A DNA stretch of 49,338 bases, taken from the NCBI GenBank assembly GCA_021300155.1, contig JAJTID010000108.1, forward strand, positions 1-49,338. The letters run 5' to 3'. Under the pieces are notes generated by a model. That model was not told where the DNA came from, made no database searches, and saw nothing but the letters and a program-made list of their open reading frames with translations. The DNA is from Pirellula sp. GTDB lineage: Bacteria; Planctomycetota; Planctomycetia; Pirellulales; Pirellulaceae. Position 1 is the stretch's first letter, and the number at the start of each line of letters is the position of its first letter. This document shows, piece after piece, positions 3,939-10,352 of the stretch. Both the position numbers and the translations under genes were made by a program.

Positions 3939-6512
3939 CTACTTTTGTAGAATTTTTTTGCGACCCGTTTGCGTGAGCCGATTCCTAATGAACCACCAGA
4001 TTACCCCCACTCCGGCTAGACCAATCCACCATGGGAGGTTCGCATAAAGTCCAGTTGCACTCTTCTCTGAACGAATCTCTGTGCCGAGCTGCAAACTATG
4101 CGATACGACGAGTGGAGCAATCTGCCGGTGTTGACTACCTAACGCCTGAGTCATCTCCTGCGTCTTGTAGCTCCAGAATCGATAGAACCATCCGCTATAT
4201 TGAACACGCATCCTTGGGTATTGAACCTGCAACTCATCGCTCCCGACAGATGGCGCACCGCTCGCCAATTCACCACCCTGCAACCAATCGGGCAATTCGC
4301 GAGTTAATATCGTGATGGGATATTCTCCATTGTAAATGATTGGTTCGTTTTCCGTTGGCATTTCGAGCGTGACGTTGCCGATGTCTGCCATGCAGTCTAA
4401 TTCATAATAGTGATCACCGCCCAACCAACTCTGCTCTCGTGCCTTTTCGACCGGTATCTTGGTAGCTCGAACCACACGAGCTTTGCCGCTGATCCATTCC
4501 ATGGAAGGTTTCGATCGCCCCTTGGAGCCCTTCGCCAACGAATTTTCTAGCAACTTCGTCAACGTTGCCGTCGCTTGCGGTACGGATGATTTCGTATCGA
4601 TCCCAATCGCGGAAACCAAACGAAGCAAAGAAAAAAGTGGTTCTAACTCGTTAGATGCCAATGGACGAATCGGCGACTGTAGGTTCTCTAACTCATCCCG
4701 AAACGAAAGATCCCAACCCAATACGAGCAAGCACTGCAATCGCTCCGGCAACACCGGCTTCCAATCGTTCATTGCAATTTCGCCAATTCGGTTCGGCCGA
4801 ATCTTCCATCGGATATCATCGACCACGATAGCCTTGCGTATCTTCCCATCTGCACTCTCCTCGAACGCGAAGCCTGAAGCGACAAAAGGTTGCAGAAATG
4901 CATGTTGTTTGCTTTGGTTCATCCAATCTTTGGGAATCCGATTGCAATAGATCACGGTCGCTTCTTCCCCTTCGCCAGCTACAGTGATTCGAAAGAACTG
5001 TGTCTGTTCCGCTCGTTGCATGGCTTGGACTGCGGGGGAGCGATTGGTTTTACGAAGCTCTAAAACATCGACCCGTTCTACCTGTGTCGCGATTCCTTCT
5101 AAAGACTTCAATTTGATATTCCCGGCAACTGGCCATGCATAGTCTGATTCGCAAAGCTGTTGGATTTCTGGAGCATGCTTCTGTGCCGCTAGCAACAATT
5201 GCAATGCGCCTTCGGACACGGATTCTGCCGTCGATTCCCATTCCTTAGAAGCAAACTCTCCCACCGATTGGTTTACTGTTTTCATAACGAGCGAGAACGG
5301 CGTATTGAAATCGCGCGGTGGTTGCCATAGTTTGGGGCTAGGCAAACCTCGTAACCATCGGACGAATCGTTGGCTATGCTTTGAGGTTGTCTCGTTTGGA
5401 TCCTGCAGTGCAGCAGCGAAGAGAACCGGCGCCGTCTCAGGACCACGCTGTGACGAATAGGCTACTTTCTTCGTGAAAAACCCGATCACTTCCACGGTAC
5501 GATTCAATTCGGCGTAGCTTGCTTTCCCCAAGATGTCCACTGGAACATAAACGGTCACAGGCTGGCTATTCGCTTCGTCAGGCTTCAACCACAACACACG
5601 ATAATCGACTGCAGGCCATCCTTTACCTTCGATGTGCCCGTTTCGTTCATCGACCAATGCAATCGTTCCGCGAAATCGAATCGGTACACCTCGCACTGCA
5701 TTATTCGAAGTGGAAACCAACTGCATCACTTCCACACGAGGAACTTCACGAGCGTTGAGGATGCCTCTCTCGAGCTCCGATCGCAACTGCAGTACTCGTT
5801 GCCACGTTCGCAAACTAATCAGATGCTCGGATTCACGCCACGTTTGATTGTCTTGCATTTGAAGGATAAACCGACGGTCCAATGCGAGTCGAAACGATCT
5901 CCCCCATGCATCGTCAGGTAGCTCCTTGAGCCTTGAAGATGAGCCTTGAAGCTCCTCTTCGATCGCGCGAATCGTTTCAACTTCGCTGTCGGCACCATCG
6001 TTCGCGGCGTTTCCCAACGTCTCTTCCCAACGTCCGAGTTGCTCCAACGAATTTGCAAGCCATTCATCAATGGCGGCAGAGGATGTCAATTCCACTTGCG
6101 AATACTGCTGTTCGATCAAGGCCGCGATCTCTTTGGGACTCGCACTAGCGATCAAGAACTCCATGACTTGTTGCATCTGCGACTGCGAACTCAGCGTCGA
6201 TCGCAATTGCAATTGCTCGTACGTCCAATCGTTCGATGCCGTACTAGACTCTTCATTCAAATCAGACTCTGTTGTCGTCTCGGTCGCAGCCTCTACCCCT
6301 TGGTCGCCATACGGTTCAAACAATCCGATGGCCGTGCCGACTTTTTCCACTTGTTTGGTGTCGCTCACCGTTTGAATCAGAATAAGAATCAAAAAGAGCA
6401 GCACAAATAGCGAAATCAGTTTTCGAGTGCCGTTGCTTTGTTCCATCGTTTTCGCTCTAGACTGGGATTGTCCATCCAATCCATACCAGCGATTTTGACG
6501 TTTGGTTGGCAT
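3939..6512 (-). CDS. Large membrane-anchored protein of unknown function
   Basis: This 857-residue protein is not recognised. It has a short cytoplasmic N-terminus rich in K/R/Q, one hydrophobic segment at about residues 31-48 (KLISLFVLLFLILILIQTV), a long acidic and Ser/Gln-rich linker, a large probably extracytoplasmic middle part, and a second hydrophobic segment close to the C-terminus (WWIGLAGVGVIWWFI) followed by a basic tail RNRLTQTGRKKILQK. The topology therefore suggests a big loop held at both ends by membrane helices. The middle region contains strand-rich stretches (for example PIRFRGTIALVDERNGHIEG) that look OB/beta-sandwich-like, but I cannot assign a family. Its start is 22 bases after the stop of the kinase-TAXI gene, so co-transcription is likely and a role in the same signalling or envelope process is a fair guess. 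Confidence 0.85.
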   Translation of the reverse strand: MPTKRQNRWYGLDGQSQSRAKTMEQSNGTRKLISLFVLLFLILILIQTVSDTKQVEKVGTAIGLFEPYGDQGVEAATETTTESDLNEESSTASNDWTYEQLQLRSTLSSQSQMQQVMEFLIASASPKEIAALIEQQYSQVELTSSAAIDEWLANSLEQLGRWEETLGNAANDGADSEVETIRAIEEELQGSSSRLKELPDDAWGRSFRLALDRRFILQMQDNQTWRESEHLISLRTWQRVLQLRSELERGILNAREVPRVEVMQLVSTSNNAVRGVPIRFRGTIALVDERNGHIEGKGWPAVDYRVLWLKPDEANSQPVTVYVPVDILGKASYAELNRTVEVIGFFTKKVAYSSQRGPETAPVLFAAALQDPNETTSKHSQRFVRWLRGLPSPKLWQPPRDFNTPFSLVMKTVNQSVGEFASKEWESTAESVSEGALQLLLAAQKHAPEIQQLCESDYAWPVAGNIKLKSLEGIATQVERVDVLELRKTNRSPAVQAMQRAEQTQFFRITVAGEGEEATVIYCNRIPKDWMNQSKQHAFLQPFVASGFAFEESADGKIRKAIVVDDIRWKIRPNRIGEIAMNDWKPVLPERLQCLLVLGWDLSFRDELENLQSPIRPLASNELEPLFSLLRLVSAIGIDTKSSVPQATATLTKLLENSLAKGSKGRSKPSMEWISGKARVVRATKIPVEKAREQSWLGGDHYYELDCMADIGNVTLEMPTENEPIIYNGEYPITILTRELPDWLQGGELASGAPSVGSDELQVQYPRMRVQYSGWFYRFWSYKTQEMTQALGSQHRQIAPLVVSHSLQLGTEIRSEKSATGLYANLPWWIGLAGVGVIWWFIRNRLTQTGRKKILQK

Positions 6513-6534: not shown

Positions 6535-8769
6535 TTACCGATCGGGGGAGGTAAAGAATTTGCGAGCGGCTTCGTGATAGGGCAGCCCTTGCCAATTCGA
6601 AGCCAACTCGAAGGGGATCATACCCGCCAACGGCTTGTCTTTCCGATAGATCGCTTGAAGAGAGTCTTTTACAAATCGCGACGAAGCATCTTTCCTGACC
6701 ACCAACAATGCGGTAGTAGCCAAGGTCTGGACGGGAGTCGTTCGATCGAGCGAATATTCTGCGGGTGGAATTTCGTAGGGGCGGAACATCGGCTCTTCCA
6801 ATGCAAGCGACCCTACGTTGGTCAAAGACAAAAACTCAAACCCTTCATCAACGAGCATCTTGTGCATTCCCGGCTGACCTACCTTTATCACCGCAACGAC
6901 GACCTCTGCTTGCTTTCGCATTTCCTCTTCAAACCAATCTCCGTTGACGATCGCAAGCTTCTCGACATCGATCGCAAAATGGGAAAGCAATCGTGTTGCC
7001 GCTTGTCGTGTACCAGACTCAGGAGAGCCGAGCATCACTCGCTTGTTGGCAATCGCCTCCACATTGCGAATCTCTAATTCCTTTCGAACGAGAATATGGA
7101 CCGCTTCGTAAAACAACGGTGCTACCACAGCGACTTGATCGGATCGAACGGCCGACTCTTGCATGATCGCCATTTGAGCGCGGTTTTCTAGGAGATGCTT
7201 GAGATTCTCTAAGGAGCCATAGGTAGAAATGACATTCGCATGCATCCCTGTCTCAGACTCCAGCACTTTGGTAATCTCACCCGCCATTTGAAAATACATC
7301 CCGCCTGACGATCCGGATGCAATCGCAAACGAACGTGGTACCGAGTGATCACGCATGTATTGCATGGCTGATGGCCCGATCAACCAAAGCGAGATTCCGA
7401 CCAATAGAACTAGAATAGCGACGTTCTGGGCTCGCCGCTGAGACACGGACGGCTCGACGTTTCGATGCCCTGACAACGCAGCAATGATCGGAACATTGGC
7501 CAACCAATGCTTTGCTTTTCGAATCCACGATGGCGCTCGAGCCTCGATCGGCGCTCCGGAATAGAAGCGTTGCAAATCGTCGGCTAAATCTCGGGCCGAA
7601 GCGTAACGTCGGCTCGGTGTTTTCTCTAAGCACTTCATGACGATCGTGTCGAGATCGGGATGTACATCATCACGCGATGCGCGAACGCTCGGAGTTGGGC
7701 GGTTCATGACCTGCATCATCGTTTGCATGATCGACTCCGCCTGAAACGGCGGCTTGCCAACCAAGAGCGCGTACAAGATAGCGCCGATGGCATAAACATC
7801 TGTGGATGCACTGTGCTCTTCACTTTTGCCAGCCGCCTGTTCAGGTGACATATAACTCGGTGTCCCCAACGCAGCCCCCGTCGCCGTCAGCCCTTCGTTC
7901 GAGTCCATTCGCTTGGCGAGACCAAAGTCGGTAAGCACCACTTCGTCGTCTTCATTGATGAGCACATTCGCAGGCTTCAAATCGCGATGCACGACTCCTT
8001 GCGAATGGGCATAATCGATCGCCTTGGCTACATCGCGTGTATACCTCACCGCATCGCGTACTGCCATTGGCCCTTCTGCAAGTTTCTTTGCCAGATCGGT
8101 GCCAGGCACATAATCCATCGAAAAGAAGTGATGCCCTTCGTGTTCCCCGCAATGATAGATCGTGATGATGGAGGAGTGCATCAAACTCCCTGCACTTCGA
8201 GCCTCGGCATAAAATCGGTTGACTTCATCGTCACTCGCTAAAGCACCGGAACGAATCATCTTCACCGCAACCTGACGACTCAGGTTGGTCTGTGTCGCTA
8301 AATACACGACCCCCATCCCACCTCGCCCAAGCACTTTCTCCAGGGTGTATTCTCCAAACCGACAAGGAAGCACTCCCTGCGTATTGTCGACACTCGGCAA
8401 TGAGGAAAAGCTAAAGTCTCTCGATCGCGTGGGGGGAGGCAGCGTGGACTCATCCGGTGAGATAATGCGAGGCTCGGATCCTTTCGCAGGCATCGTCACT
8501 GCATTCGGATCAGGCGATACCTCTGGAGTCTTTTCCGAAGAGCGTTTCGAGTCGGGAAGCGGGAGCGGATTCGGTGCCAGAATCGGTCCGGCCATGGTTT
8601 CGATCCAATCCGCAGTATCCAATAGTTCGCTGAGCCGTCCACTCAATTGCGGATATCGTTGTAGAAACGTATCCCGATCCTCGGGATTTCCTGCATCGAA
8701 TCGACGCATAAACTCGAGCAACGCTTGATCCAACTCTAATTCGGACTCGTCGTCAGATTCGTTGATCAT
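6535..8769 (-). CDS. Ser/Thr protein kinase fused to TAXI solute-receptor domain
   Basis: The protein has 744 residues. Residues 1-130 are an acidic, proline-rich cytoplasmic lead. Residues 141-400 form a Hanks-type kinase: GRGGMGVVY (148-156), the ATP lysine in VAVKM (170), catalytic HRDLKPANV (261-269), DFGLAKR (281-287) and SPEQAA. One membrane helix lies at about 449-466 (NVAILVLLVGISLWLIG). Residues 478-744 match TAXI-type TRAP solute receptors: the opening ASGSSGGMYFQMAGEITKVL, then NVISTYGSLENLKHLL and RAQMAIMQESA, and later GSPESGTRQAA. In that family the domain binds small acids such as glutamate in the periplasm. Inferred role: a transmembrane kinase whose activity is set by a bound solute. 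No TRAP permease gene is adjacent. It lies between a membrane NTPase (95 bases upstream) and the unknown membrane protein (22 bases downstream). Confidence 0.92.
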   Translation of the reverse strand: MINESDDESELELDQALLEFMRRFDAGNPEDRDTFLQRYPQLSGRLSELLDTADWIETMAGPILAPNPLPLPDSKRSSEKTPEVSPDPNAVTMPAKGSEPRIISPDESTLPPPTRSRDFSFSSLPSVDNTQGVLPCRFGEYTLEKVLGRGGMGVVYLATQTNLSRQVAVKMIRSGALASDDEVNRFYAEARSAGSLMHSSIITIYHCGEHEGHHFFSMDYVPGTDLAKKLAEGPMAVRDAVRYTRDVAKAIDYAHSQGVVHRDLKPANVLINEDDEVVLTDFGLAKRMDSNEGLTATGAALGTPSYMSPEQAAGKSEEHSASTDVYAIGAILYALLVGKPPFQAESIMQTMMQVMNRPTPSVRASRDDVHPDLDTIVMKCLEKTPSRRYASARDLADDLQRFYSGAPIEARAPSWIRKAKHWLANVPIIAALSGHRNVEPSVSQRRAQNVAILVLLVGISLWLIGPSAMQYMRDHSVPRSFAIASGSSGGMYFQMAGEITKVLESETGMHANVISTYGSLENLKHLLENRAQMAIMQESAVRSDQVAVVAPLFYEAVHILVRKELEIRNVEAIANKRVMLGSPESGTRQAATRLLSHFAIDVEKLAIVNGDWFEEEMRKQAEVVVAVIKVGQPGMHKMLVDEGFEFLSLTNVGSLALEEPMFRPYEIPPAEYSLDRTTPVQTLATTALLVVRKDASSRFVKDSLQAIYRKDKPLAGMIPFELASNWQGLPYHEAARKFFTSPDR

Positions 8770-8864: not shown

Positions 8865-10352
8865 CTAAGCTCGGCGTTCTTCCGATTGTGCGACCGCCAG
8901 GGTGCTCTCAAACAAGTCGCTCGCAATCTGAAACTGCGGAGACTCCGAACGGTACTTTTTGCAATGTTCCGTGATCAACCGATATAAAAATCGAAACAGA
9001 TTTCGCGGCGTTTTCAACGATTGAAAGGCAGAAACAAGACGTTGTTCCGAAACTTGGGGGTCGAACAGCCCTTTCGGACTGCTCGCCGAACCTCTGCTCG
9101 AACAGGCCTTCATCCGGGCCGCCAACAAATCGTACAATGCCTCTCCCGTCCAATCAAAAGATGGAACCACGTTCTGTTTGTCCAACCTAGCACGTTCATG
9201 AAACTCCCGTGTTTCGCGGTCCGTGTAGTATTGCAACTCGCTTGGCAACAACAATTTGATCCCAAAACTCTCGTGCTTTAATAGCTTATTGTCCAACAAC
9301 GGCCACACGAGTAACTTCATCCGCTCCGACATCCCGTTGACCAAGTCTGGTTCGTCGACGCGATCCACGATAACGATCAAACCCGGATAGCCCAGCGAAC
9401 GCAAAAGCAACTGCAGTTTCTCAAGCAATGCATAGCGATCGTCCGAACGATTCGATGATGGCAACGGTTGCTCATCCAACTCCTTGCGTGAAAAAGACAA
9501 AAGCAGACTTCGAAGCTGGCTTCGATCGCGCGTTATAACTCGCAAATGCTTGCATATCTTCGAAGCGAACAACTGGTACCTTACCCAACGATGAAGATAA
9601 GAGGCCCACGATAAAGCTAATCCCGTTGGCACAAGCCACATGACTGCCCTCAGCGAGAGTGCTTCTTCCGCATAAAGATATCCAATCACCACCATTGCCA
9701 GCACCGACAATAGCACTCCCAAGATGAATGGGAACCACGTTGTCAGCGAGAAGAATTTCAACTTCATCCGTAGACTGCGAATGCGATCCACGTGTGTGCC
9801 AACTGCCGAGCGATCATAGATCGTCGCAAGCAACAACAGGTCTCTTCGTTGCCCGCGATCCAGTTTGTGCACCAACTGCATGTCGATGCTTTGATCGATA
9901 GCATTCAAAGTCGAGGATGTCCCCAGTATGCGATCAACCAACGGCGTGACAGCTTCGCAAAGTATCGCATCCATGTGATCCCACAAATGGAGGGACTGCA
10001 ACACCTTGTCAGGCGAGGCCTGCACGCGACGAGGTAGACTCTGTTGAAATGGTCCTAGATAAGAATTGAAATCGTCTAGCTCGACCAAATAGACCCTGGT
10101 ATCTGGCGATTGTCGATTGTGTTGCAAGATATGCTGTTTTAACTGCAATCGAATGGCAGTTTTGCCTGACCCCTTGGGGCCGAACACAATCGATGTTGCC
10201 GGTTGCCGAGGGTCACCAACCACTTTGCTCCACGAAGGATGAAATGTGCCAGAAATGCACGAGTCTCGAAACACGGCATCCGTCTGCGCGTCCTCATCGG
10301 AGAATGGATTTCGAGTCAGGTTGTGGTGGAGGAGAAATTCTTGTTCAGTCAT
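8865..10352 (-). CDS. Membrane-associated P-loop NTPase (KAP/ExeA-like)
   Basis: The protein has 495 residues. The N-terminus (FLLHHNLTRNPFSDEDA) resembles the start of ExeA/KAP-type ATPases. A Walker A motif GPKGSGKT is at residues 58-65 and a Walker B-like strand LIVIVDRVDEPDLV at about 325-338. Two hydrophobic helices at about 204-226 and 233-251 separate them, which is the arrangement of KAP NTPases, where paired membrane helices are inserted in the P-loop domain. The C-terminal part is helical, with a sensor-like NLFRFLYRLI segment. Family members are thought to organise membrane complexes; the substrate is unknown. It is the first gene of a minus-strand set with the kinase-TAXI protein 95 bases downstream. 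The ATG at 10352 is preceded by GGAGGAA rather far upstream (about 15 bases), so the start carries some doubt. Confidence 0.83.
   Translation of the reverse strand: MTEQEFLLHHNLTRNPFSDEDAQTDAVFRDSCISGTFHPSWSKVVGDPRQPATSIVFGPKGSGKTAIRLQLKQHILQHNRQSPDTRVYLVELDDFNSYLGPFQQSLPRRVQASPDKVLQSLHLWDHMDAILCEAVTPLVDRILGTSSTLNAIDQSIDMQLVHKLDRGQRRDLLLLATIYDRSAVGTHVDRIRSLRMKLKFFSLTTWFPFILGVLLSVLAMVVIGYLYAEEALSLRAVMWLVPTGLALSWASYLHRWVRYQLFASKICKHLRVITRDRSQLRSLLLSFSRKELDEQPLPSSNRSDDRYALLEKLQLLLRSLGYPGLIVIVDRVDEPDLVNGMSERMKLLVWPLLDNKLLKHESFGIKLLLPSELQYYTDRETREFHERARLDKQNVVPSFDWTGEALYDLLAARMKACSSRGSASSPKGLFDPQVSEQRLVSAFQSLKTPRNLFRFLYRLITEHCKKYRSESPQFQIASDLFESTLAVAQSEERRA

Follow-up and report, generated by a model that had tools for sequence, protein, structure and literature searches.

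Which stimuli activate bacterial protein kinases has been called an outstanding question (PMC6069109). A single reading frame of a Pirellula genome raises it anew: in the window, by which we mean the whole stretch of 49,338 nucleotides that was analysed, an ORF of 744 amino acids on the minus strand (6535..8769, ATG-to-stop in the ORF list) encodes both a Ser/Thr kinase and a TAXI-type receptor domain, as identified with Pfam and NCBIfam. Is this join genuine and maintained, does the receptor part still hold a ligand site, and could it serve the kinase as its sensor?

A kinase and a TAXI domain in one reading frame

The translation of the frame contains VAVKM, HRDLKPANV, DFGLAKR, ASGSSGGMYFQMAGEI, TYGSLENLKHLL and GSPESGTRQAA. 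A sequence-only reading had seen in it a Hanks kinase, one membrane helix and a C-terminal TAXI segment, and Pfam, NCBIfam and a structure model bore this out. Pfam placed a protein kinase domain (Pkinase, E 3.7e-54) at residues 141-390 (7600..8349, minus strand), where alignment and patterns located the G-loop, VAVK, HRD, DFG and SPE elements of a Hanks-type Ser/Thr kinase. The G-loop, Lys, HRD-K-N, DFG and PE motifs were invariant in 21 aligned rows, and the window protein has them by pattern; among 48 fused proteins, our own patterns found the motif set complete in 42, with one or two motifs missing in the other 6. Ahead of the kinase, alignment and an AlphaFold model delimit an N-terminal helical segment at residues 8-60 (8590..8748, minus strand), which gave no match in the Pfam scan and in which several positions were invariant in the 21 aligned rows.

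The C-terminal part was assigned to the TAXI class by several routes. Residues 483-739 (6553..7323, minus strand) matched the Pfam model of TAXI-like domains, NMT1_3 (PF16868), with E 3.1e-25 and a score of 89.8 bits (cut-off 27), and NCBIfam reported TRAP_TAXI (TIGR02122) at residues 454-739 with 96.3 bits against 84.35. A PDB sequence search returned TAXI receptors as the closest proteins, the best solved relative being 1us4 (GluR0-like ligand-binding core; E 5e-17). In the AlphaFold model, made from 21 aligned rows, the 10-residue mean pLDDT of the TAXI region was mostly 80-91, with dips to 70, 76 and 55, and Foldseek against the PDB ranked 1us4 first (E 1.4e-17, TM 0.74 by target length), followed by 8u79 and 9ibo (VcGluP with glutamate) at ranks 2-3 and then 4ddd, with 8s4j at rank 6. 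Profile searches and structure prediction agree in placing a TAXI fold here, a two-lobe Venus-flytrap domain like 1us4 and 8s4j that is putatively periplasmic. The kinase part of the model matched PknB, from rank 5 in the same search; this half was modelled poorly (many 10-residue blocks below 50, pTM 0.42), and kinase-TAXI coupling lies outside the model's reach.

Between the two domains lies one hydrophobic segment, whose kinase side is slightly more positively charged. We placed the single transmembrane segment at about residues 450-468 (7366..7422, minus strand), within a continuous helix that AlphaFold predicts at residues 442-475. Since the kinase needs ATP and one membrane segment stands between the domains in 48/48 fused proteins, the TAXI domain is probably periplasmic. 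With a kinase and a solute-binding-protein (SBP) domain in one polypeptide and a membrane segment between them, the window protein has the architecture of an SBP receptor kinase. Its order is that of the PknB/Stk1 PASTA receptor kinases, in which a Hanks kinase and one membrane helix are followed by a C-terminal outer domain; unlike in those, the Pfam scan found no PASTA repeats, and the PknB_PASTA_kin model reached 297 bits, short of its cut-off of 450, over residues 141-412 only.

Spread and age of the fusion

Kinase and TAXI domains occurred in one frame in 22 of 24 same-genus genomes, two of these fusions (G003 and G013) being cut by contig ends with both domains still visible; as to the exceptions, G004 was without a match, and in G008 the TAXI frame leaves the contig before any kinase could show. 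Both domains were also seen in 22 of 23 named GTDB-genome loci, all of them metagenome-assembled and 14 titled Pirellula, and since 21 of the 23 apparently are contigs of the 24-genome genus sample, the two counts are not independent. A class sample of 397 genomes, drawn evenly, gave 156 with a profile match. Among these were 34 of the same family, and in 29 of them the fusion was verified: 6 belong to the window's genus, the window's own genome among them, and 23 do not; the five left uncounted were unfused (G142, G346), cut by a contig end (G378) or weak matches (G202, G297). Beyond the family, the class sample held the fusion in G027 and, twice and on short contigs, in G314. In all, 25 genomes beyond the genus carry it. 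Carriers assembled into one contig are G006, G176, G270, G322, G337, G349 and G373. Within the class sample, at least 20 genomes of the family had no match, so some lineages can dispense with the protein. Across 392 genomes sampled from the phylum and searched at E 1e-20 or better, none of nine frames of at least 600 aa from other classes had a kinase in frame, and among the matches listed for the class sample two frames of more than 600 aa (L085, L098) were likewise without a kinase.

We built a tree from 48 fused and 16 unfused TAXI domains by a quick method and rooted it at its midpoint. A single branch (SH-aLRT 88) separated all the fused domains from the unfused ones; this topology is compatible with a single origin of the fusion without proving it. 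Left out of the tree were L003-L024 (taken as represented by L033-L054) and duplicate entries in which a gene recurs with a different locus id, as well as the contig-end frames L018, L030, L047, L055 and L104, the locus L094, and the domains shorter than 190 aa in L029 and L031.

L094 (G361:C381), on a 4.9-kb contig, has a different kinase N-terminal half and a C-terminal half almost identical to that of L093, with an identical TAXI part; the changeover between the halves falls close to the conserved SPEQA motif. It is likely a chimeric assembly and was dropped from our counts. In the one-contig genome G006, a transposase-like and putatively IS66-like ORF (L115:8045-9511, minus strand) separates the N-terminal extension of the fused gene from its kinase domain. 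A chimera of this kind and an extension split off in this way are what might be cited for seeing in the window gene an artefact of a chimeric contig, or a pseudogene with one half out of use. The relatives already refute that reading for the window, and we give it a negligible probability: the same join recurs in 47 other genomes, some of them one-contig, which rules out the misassembly of two genes that the sequence-only reading had itself named as a danger, and dN/dS is low in both halves. Compared with a 96%-identical relative, the TAXI part had dN 0.020 and dS 0.301 (dN/dS about 0.07), and the kinase part a dN/dS of about 0.025. By this measure the TAXI part is under purifying selection, and, judged by its distribution, the kinase-TAXI fusion is old and conserved.

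Ligand pocket, neighbouring genes and transport partners

For the TAXI protein VcGluP, six ligand residues have been named, and loss of Tyr45 or Gln93 is reported to lower affinity 213- or 990-fold, respectively (PMC11574862). We mapped these residues by HMMER alignment to 8s4j, adding 28 to the chain number to obtain the paper's number, an offset worked out in this analysis. Four of the six glutamate contacts aligned with identical residues, both critical ones included: Tyr492 (7294..7296) with the critical Tyr45, Ser519 (7213..7215) with Ser75, Gln537 (7159..7161) with the critical Gln93 and also with Gln78 of TtGluBP, and Glu555 (7105..7107) with Glu125, all on the minus strand. The other two are changed, Tyr200 to Ala626 and Met201 to Val627, and the ligand may therefore be other than glutamate.

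Conservation of the pocket was counted over 51 fused domains (the 48 tree rows plus G006, G009 and G003, the last as L039) and 16 unfused ones. Gln537 was kept in 24/24 genus, 26/27 other fused and 16/16 unfused domains, that is, in 50 of the 51 fused domains, and Tyr492 in 24/24, 25/27 and 15/16, or 49 of 51; before the three rows were added, the fused counts had been 47/48 and 46/48. Ser519 was kept in 24/24, 24/27 and 15/16, and Glu555 in 24/24, 24/27 (Asp in the other three) and 13/16 (again three Asp). For TAXI proteins at large, Gln93 is reported in 54% and Tyr45 in 78%, and the Gln93 site is suspected to vary with the ligand (PMC11574862). Retention of this pocket is not what one would expect of a degenerate domain. 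As the unfused TAXI proteins keep the same residues, the pocket alone is no argument for control of the kinase. The proposed ligand is most likely L-glutamate or a close relative, such as glutamine, pyroglutamate or 2-oxoglutarate-like acids.

Downstream of the fused gene, in the same direction and at a gap of 22 bp, an ORF (3939..6512, minus strand) encodes a protein of 857 aa in which we see, by eye, a hydrophobic helix close to either end; its structure model has OB-fold-like barrels between them. The model is of moderate quality (mean pLDDT 65.5), and its Foldseek matches were CST, RPA and SSB proteins, which are OB-fold proteins, with TM by target mostly below 0.5; no Pfam or NCBIfam family was found for it, and we would call it OB-fold-like at most. 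The gene adjoins the fused gene in 9 of the 22 fused named GTDB loci, and its product is diverged (about 31-35% identity among relatives, 86% in the closest). Ahead of its first helix the protein has a partly conserved N-terminal tail with several Ser/Thr, and it is conceivable, by way of speculation, that this tail is a substrate of the kinase.

PASTA kinases are thought to answer the state of assembly or of the envelope. By analogy, the TAXI fold might be a docking surface for a protein or envelope component, for example the 857-aa protein, with the kinase answering assembly or envelope state. A co-directional membrane-protein gene at so short a gap, adjacent in nine loci, speaks for such a role, but the other 13 of the 22 loci had no match to it in the flank (a few flanks are short, and L055, which ends inside the fused gene, is uninformative), it was not found in 12 fused loci beyond the genus, and the pocket residues are kept nearly everywhere. 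We consider docking unlikely, and prefer the reading that the TAXI domain binds a small molecule.

The upstream neighbour in the window (8865-10352, minus strand) is ATPase-like; it matched the anti-phage model DS41_1 with E 5.9e-31 and 107.9 bits, where the cut-off is 370, and gave weak AAA matches as well. In the 12 fused loci beyond the genus, one ECF sigma family stands directly upstream and co-directional in 6, and downstream a HAMP-HATPase family is found in 3 and a response-regulator-GGDEF-EAL family in 4, these neighbour domains having been verified on L109 alone. The relatives' ECF sigma factors retain acidic residues in the putative DAED stretch (DPAD-like; by eye), and kinase-regulated ECF groups, as described, differ from them in this stretch (PMC8103513). 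Direct phospho-activation of the adjacent ECF is not indicated: we inspected the DAED-equivalent stretch by eye for missing acidic residues and found no such loss.

The sequence-only reading had proposed a switch without any transporter. We searched the window's genome (260 contigs, 99.99% complete, 3.96% contamination) and found a single TAXI match (PF16868, E 0.01 or better), which is the fused protein itself. The sole DctM match was a frame of 459 aa that stands on its own, next to frames which we named DctQ- and DctP-like from their translations, and not the fused QM permease of a TRAP-TAXI transporter; the DctM model search thus found no TAXI-type TRAP permease, and the GltS model gave 0 matches, so that no GltS stands beside or fused to the TAXI domain as in TAXI-GltS. 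The proposal accordingly held for the TRAP-TAXI and GltS partners that were searched, but not in full, since one SDF-family (sodium:dicarboxylate symporter) gene on another contig could be a partner. Might the anchored TAXI domain, then, pass its ligand to a transporter encoded elsewhere, with the kinase reporting or tuning transport? Besides that SDF gene, an unfused TAXI gene beside an SDF symporter gene in locus L119 and the TAXI-GltS system, in which a TAXI SBP is tied to a carrier not of the TRAP type (PMC12344293), would fit a role in uptake. Against it, no carrier was found among the Pfam-scanned neighbours (three in the window and selected ones from the 12 loci beyond the genus), of which one is an MscL channel, and the genome search found neither permease. 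We regard this role as distinctly improbable.

Proposed mechanism and relation to known systems

The interpretation that we favour, and hold to be fairly probable, is that of a transmembrane receptor kinase made of a single chain, with a glutamate-like small molecule as its gating ligand. That the protein is a one-piece sensor of such molecules is made probable by the conservation of the join in many relatives together with the preserved ligand pocket. The TAXI domain would face the periplasm and close on a small ligand; closure would then travel via the continuous helix 442-475 to the kinase, probably by altering a dimer, and would switch phosphorylation on or off. The sequence-only reading had already made the receptor the sensor of a transmembrane kinase, and of this our comparisons support the part that concerns a fixed receptor-kinase fusion with a conserved ligand site.

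So built, the protein would correspond, in one polypeptide, to the actinobacterial GlnH-GlnX-PknG system, for which an extracytoplasmic SBP for acidic amino acids has been proposed to control a Ser/Thr kinase (PMC6069109, PMC9769921). In both, a solute-binding protein is proposed to govern a Ser/Thr kinase; the actinobacterial system, however, consists of three separate proteins, with GlnH in the polar amino-acid SBP family and PknG without a membrane helix, whereas the window protein is a single polypeptide with an SBP of the TAXI class. A kinase and an SBP in one polypeptide are also already in print, as MSMEG_1200 and a further 260 in InterPro (PMC6069109). The window protein shares with MSMEG_1200 and NF052427 StpK7 the presence of both domains on one chain, and differs in that its sensor is TAXI and its host a planctomycete; the NCBIfam model NF052427 reached 198 bits over residues 137-466 only, against a cut-off of 900. 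VcGluP and TtGluBP share the TAXI fold, and VcGluP four of its six contacts, both critical ones included, but they are transport receptors or SBPs, whereas the window's TAXI domain is anchored to a kinase and no dedicated permease was found for it in the genome. TAXI-GltS (BP0403; PMC12344293) is another case of TAXI recruited away from TRAP transporters, there linked or fused to a carrier and not to a kinase.

SBP-driven receptor activation, with Ser/Thr kinases included, has been treated as widespread (PMC9602780), and an account confined to siderophore gene clusters lists SBP_bac_3 with Pkinase and NMT1_3 without a co-occurring domain (PMC13293324). The main text of a planctomycete kinase survey has 0 occurrences of TAXI or NMT1 (PMC11032199), and no report of a TAXI-kinase was found in the literature searched, to which the SBP-signalling review PMC8050422 could add prior art. 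We rate the finding as a new variation, with TAXI as the sensor, on kinase-SBP fusions known with other SBP classes.

TAXI proteins occur in other settings as well. In the family f7, an unfused TAXI gene is followed directly by a separate Ser/Thr kinase gene in two of four genomes examined (L117, L120), and in a third (L119) by the SDF symporter gene mentioned above; as judged from gene order, the first two would be a split version of receptor and kinase, and the third neighbour a hint as to the ligand. Around five larger unfused-TAXI loci (L099-L103) no kinase frame was found nearby, so linkage of TAXI and kinase genes is not general. Common unfused proteins of about 436-500 aa (L025, L073, L076, L099, L101-L103 and others) appear, by eye, to be built of a helix at the N-terminus, then TAXI, then another hydrophobic segment and a tail that is charged and coil-like; they may be sensors too. 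The earlier description of TAXI proteins as normally free periplasmic receptors proved a little strong: unfused TAXI proteins of the class commonly carry a hydrophobic segment at the N-terminus, and lipoproteins apparently make up a higher share of TAXI than of DctP-type SBPs (PMC12344293). In G499, from another class, one frame (L154:1849-3948, minus strand) has, after TAXI, the membrane region of a neurotransmitter-gated ion channel (PF02932, E 6.4e-11, above cut-off), and a second (L160:2539-4488, plus strand) TAXI with PF02932 at E 8.8e-6 (26.6 bits against a cut-off of 28.1); on their domain content these are possible TAXI-gated channels. Tandem double TAXI was seen in L156 (two Pfam stretches) and L158 (by eye from the translation). 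Plasmid records gave 37 with a match, and among the 20 matches listed (20-26% identity) 14 are annotated as TAXI SBPs and 6 are nameless.

With the receptor domain, and a known pocket, on the kinase itself, the class of stimulus can be guessed from sequence, and since that domain sits on the kinase, ligand screening and ligand-gated phosphorylation could both be tested on one protein. If the proposed gating is true, TAXI proteins would move from transport into signalling. Evenly balanced in our judgement is the broader proposition that planctomycete TAXI is a general sensing module and not a transport receptor, fused to a Ser/Thr kinase in one lineage (perhaps once), encoded as neighbouring receptor and kinase genes in others, and fused to ligand-gated channel parts in others again; if this holds, much of the family would have, in the kinase fusion, a receptor kinase that responds directly to glutamate-class ligands.
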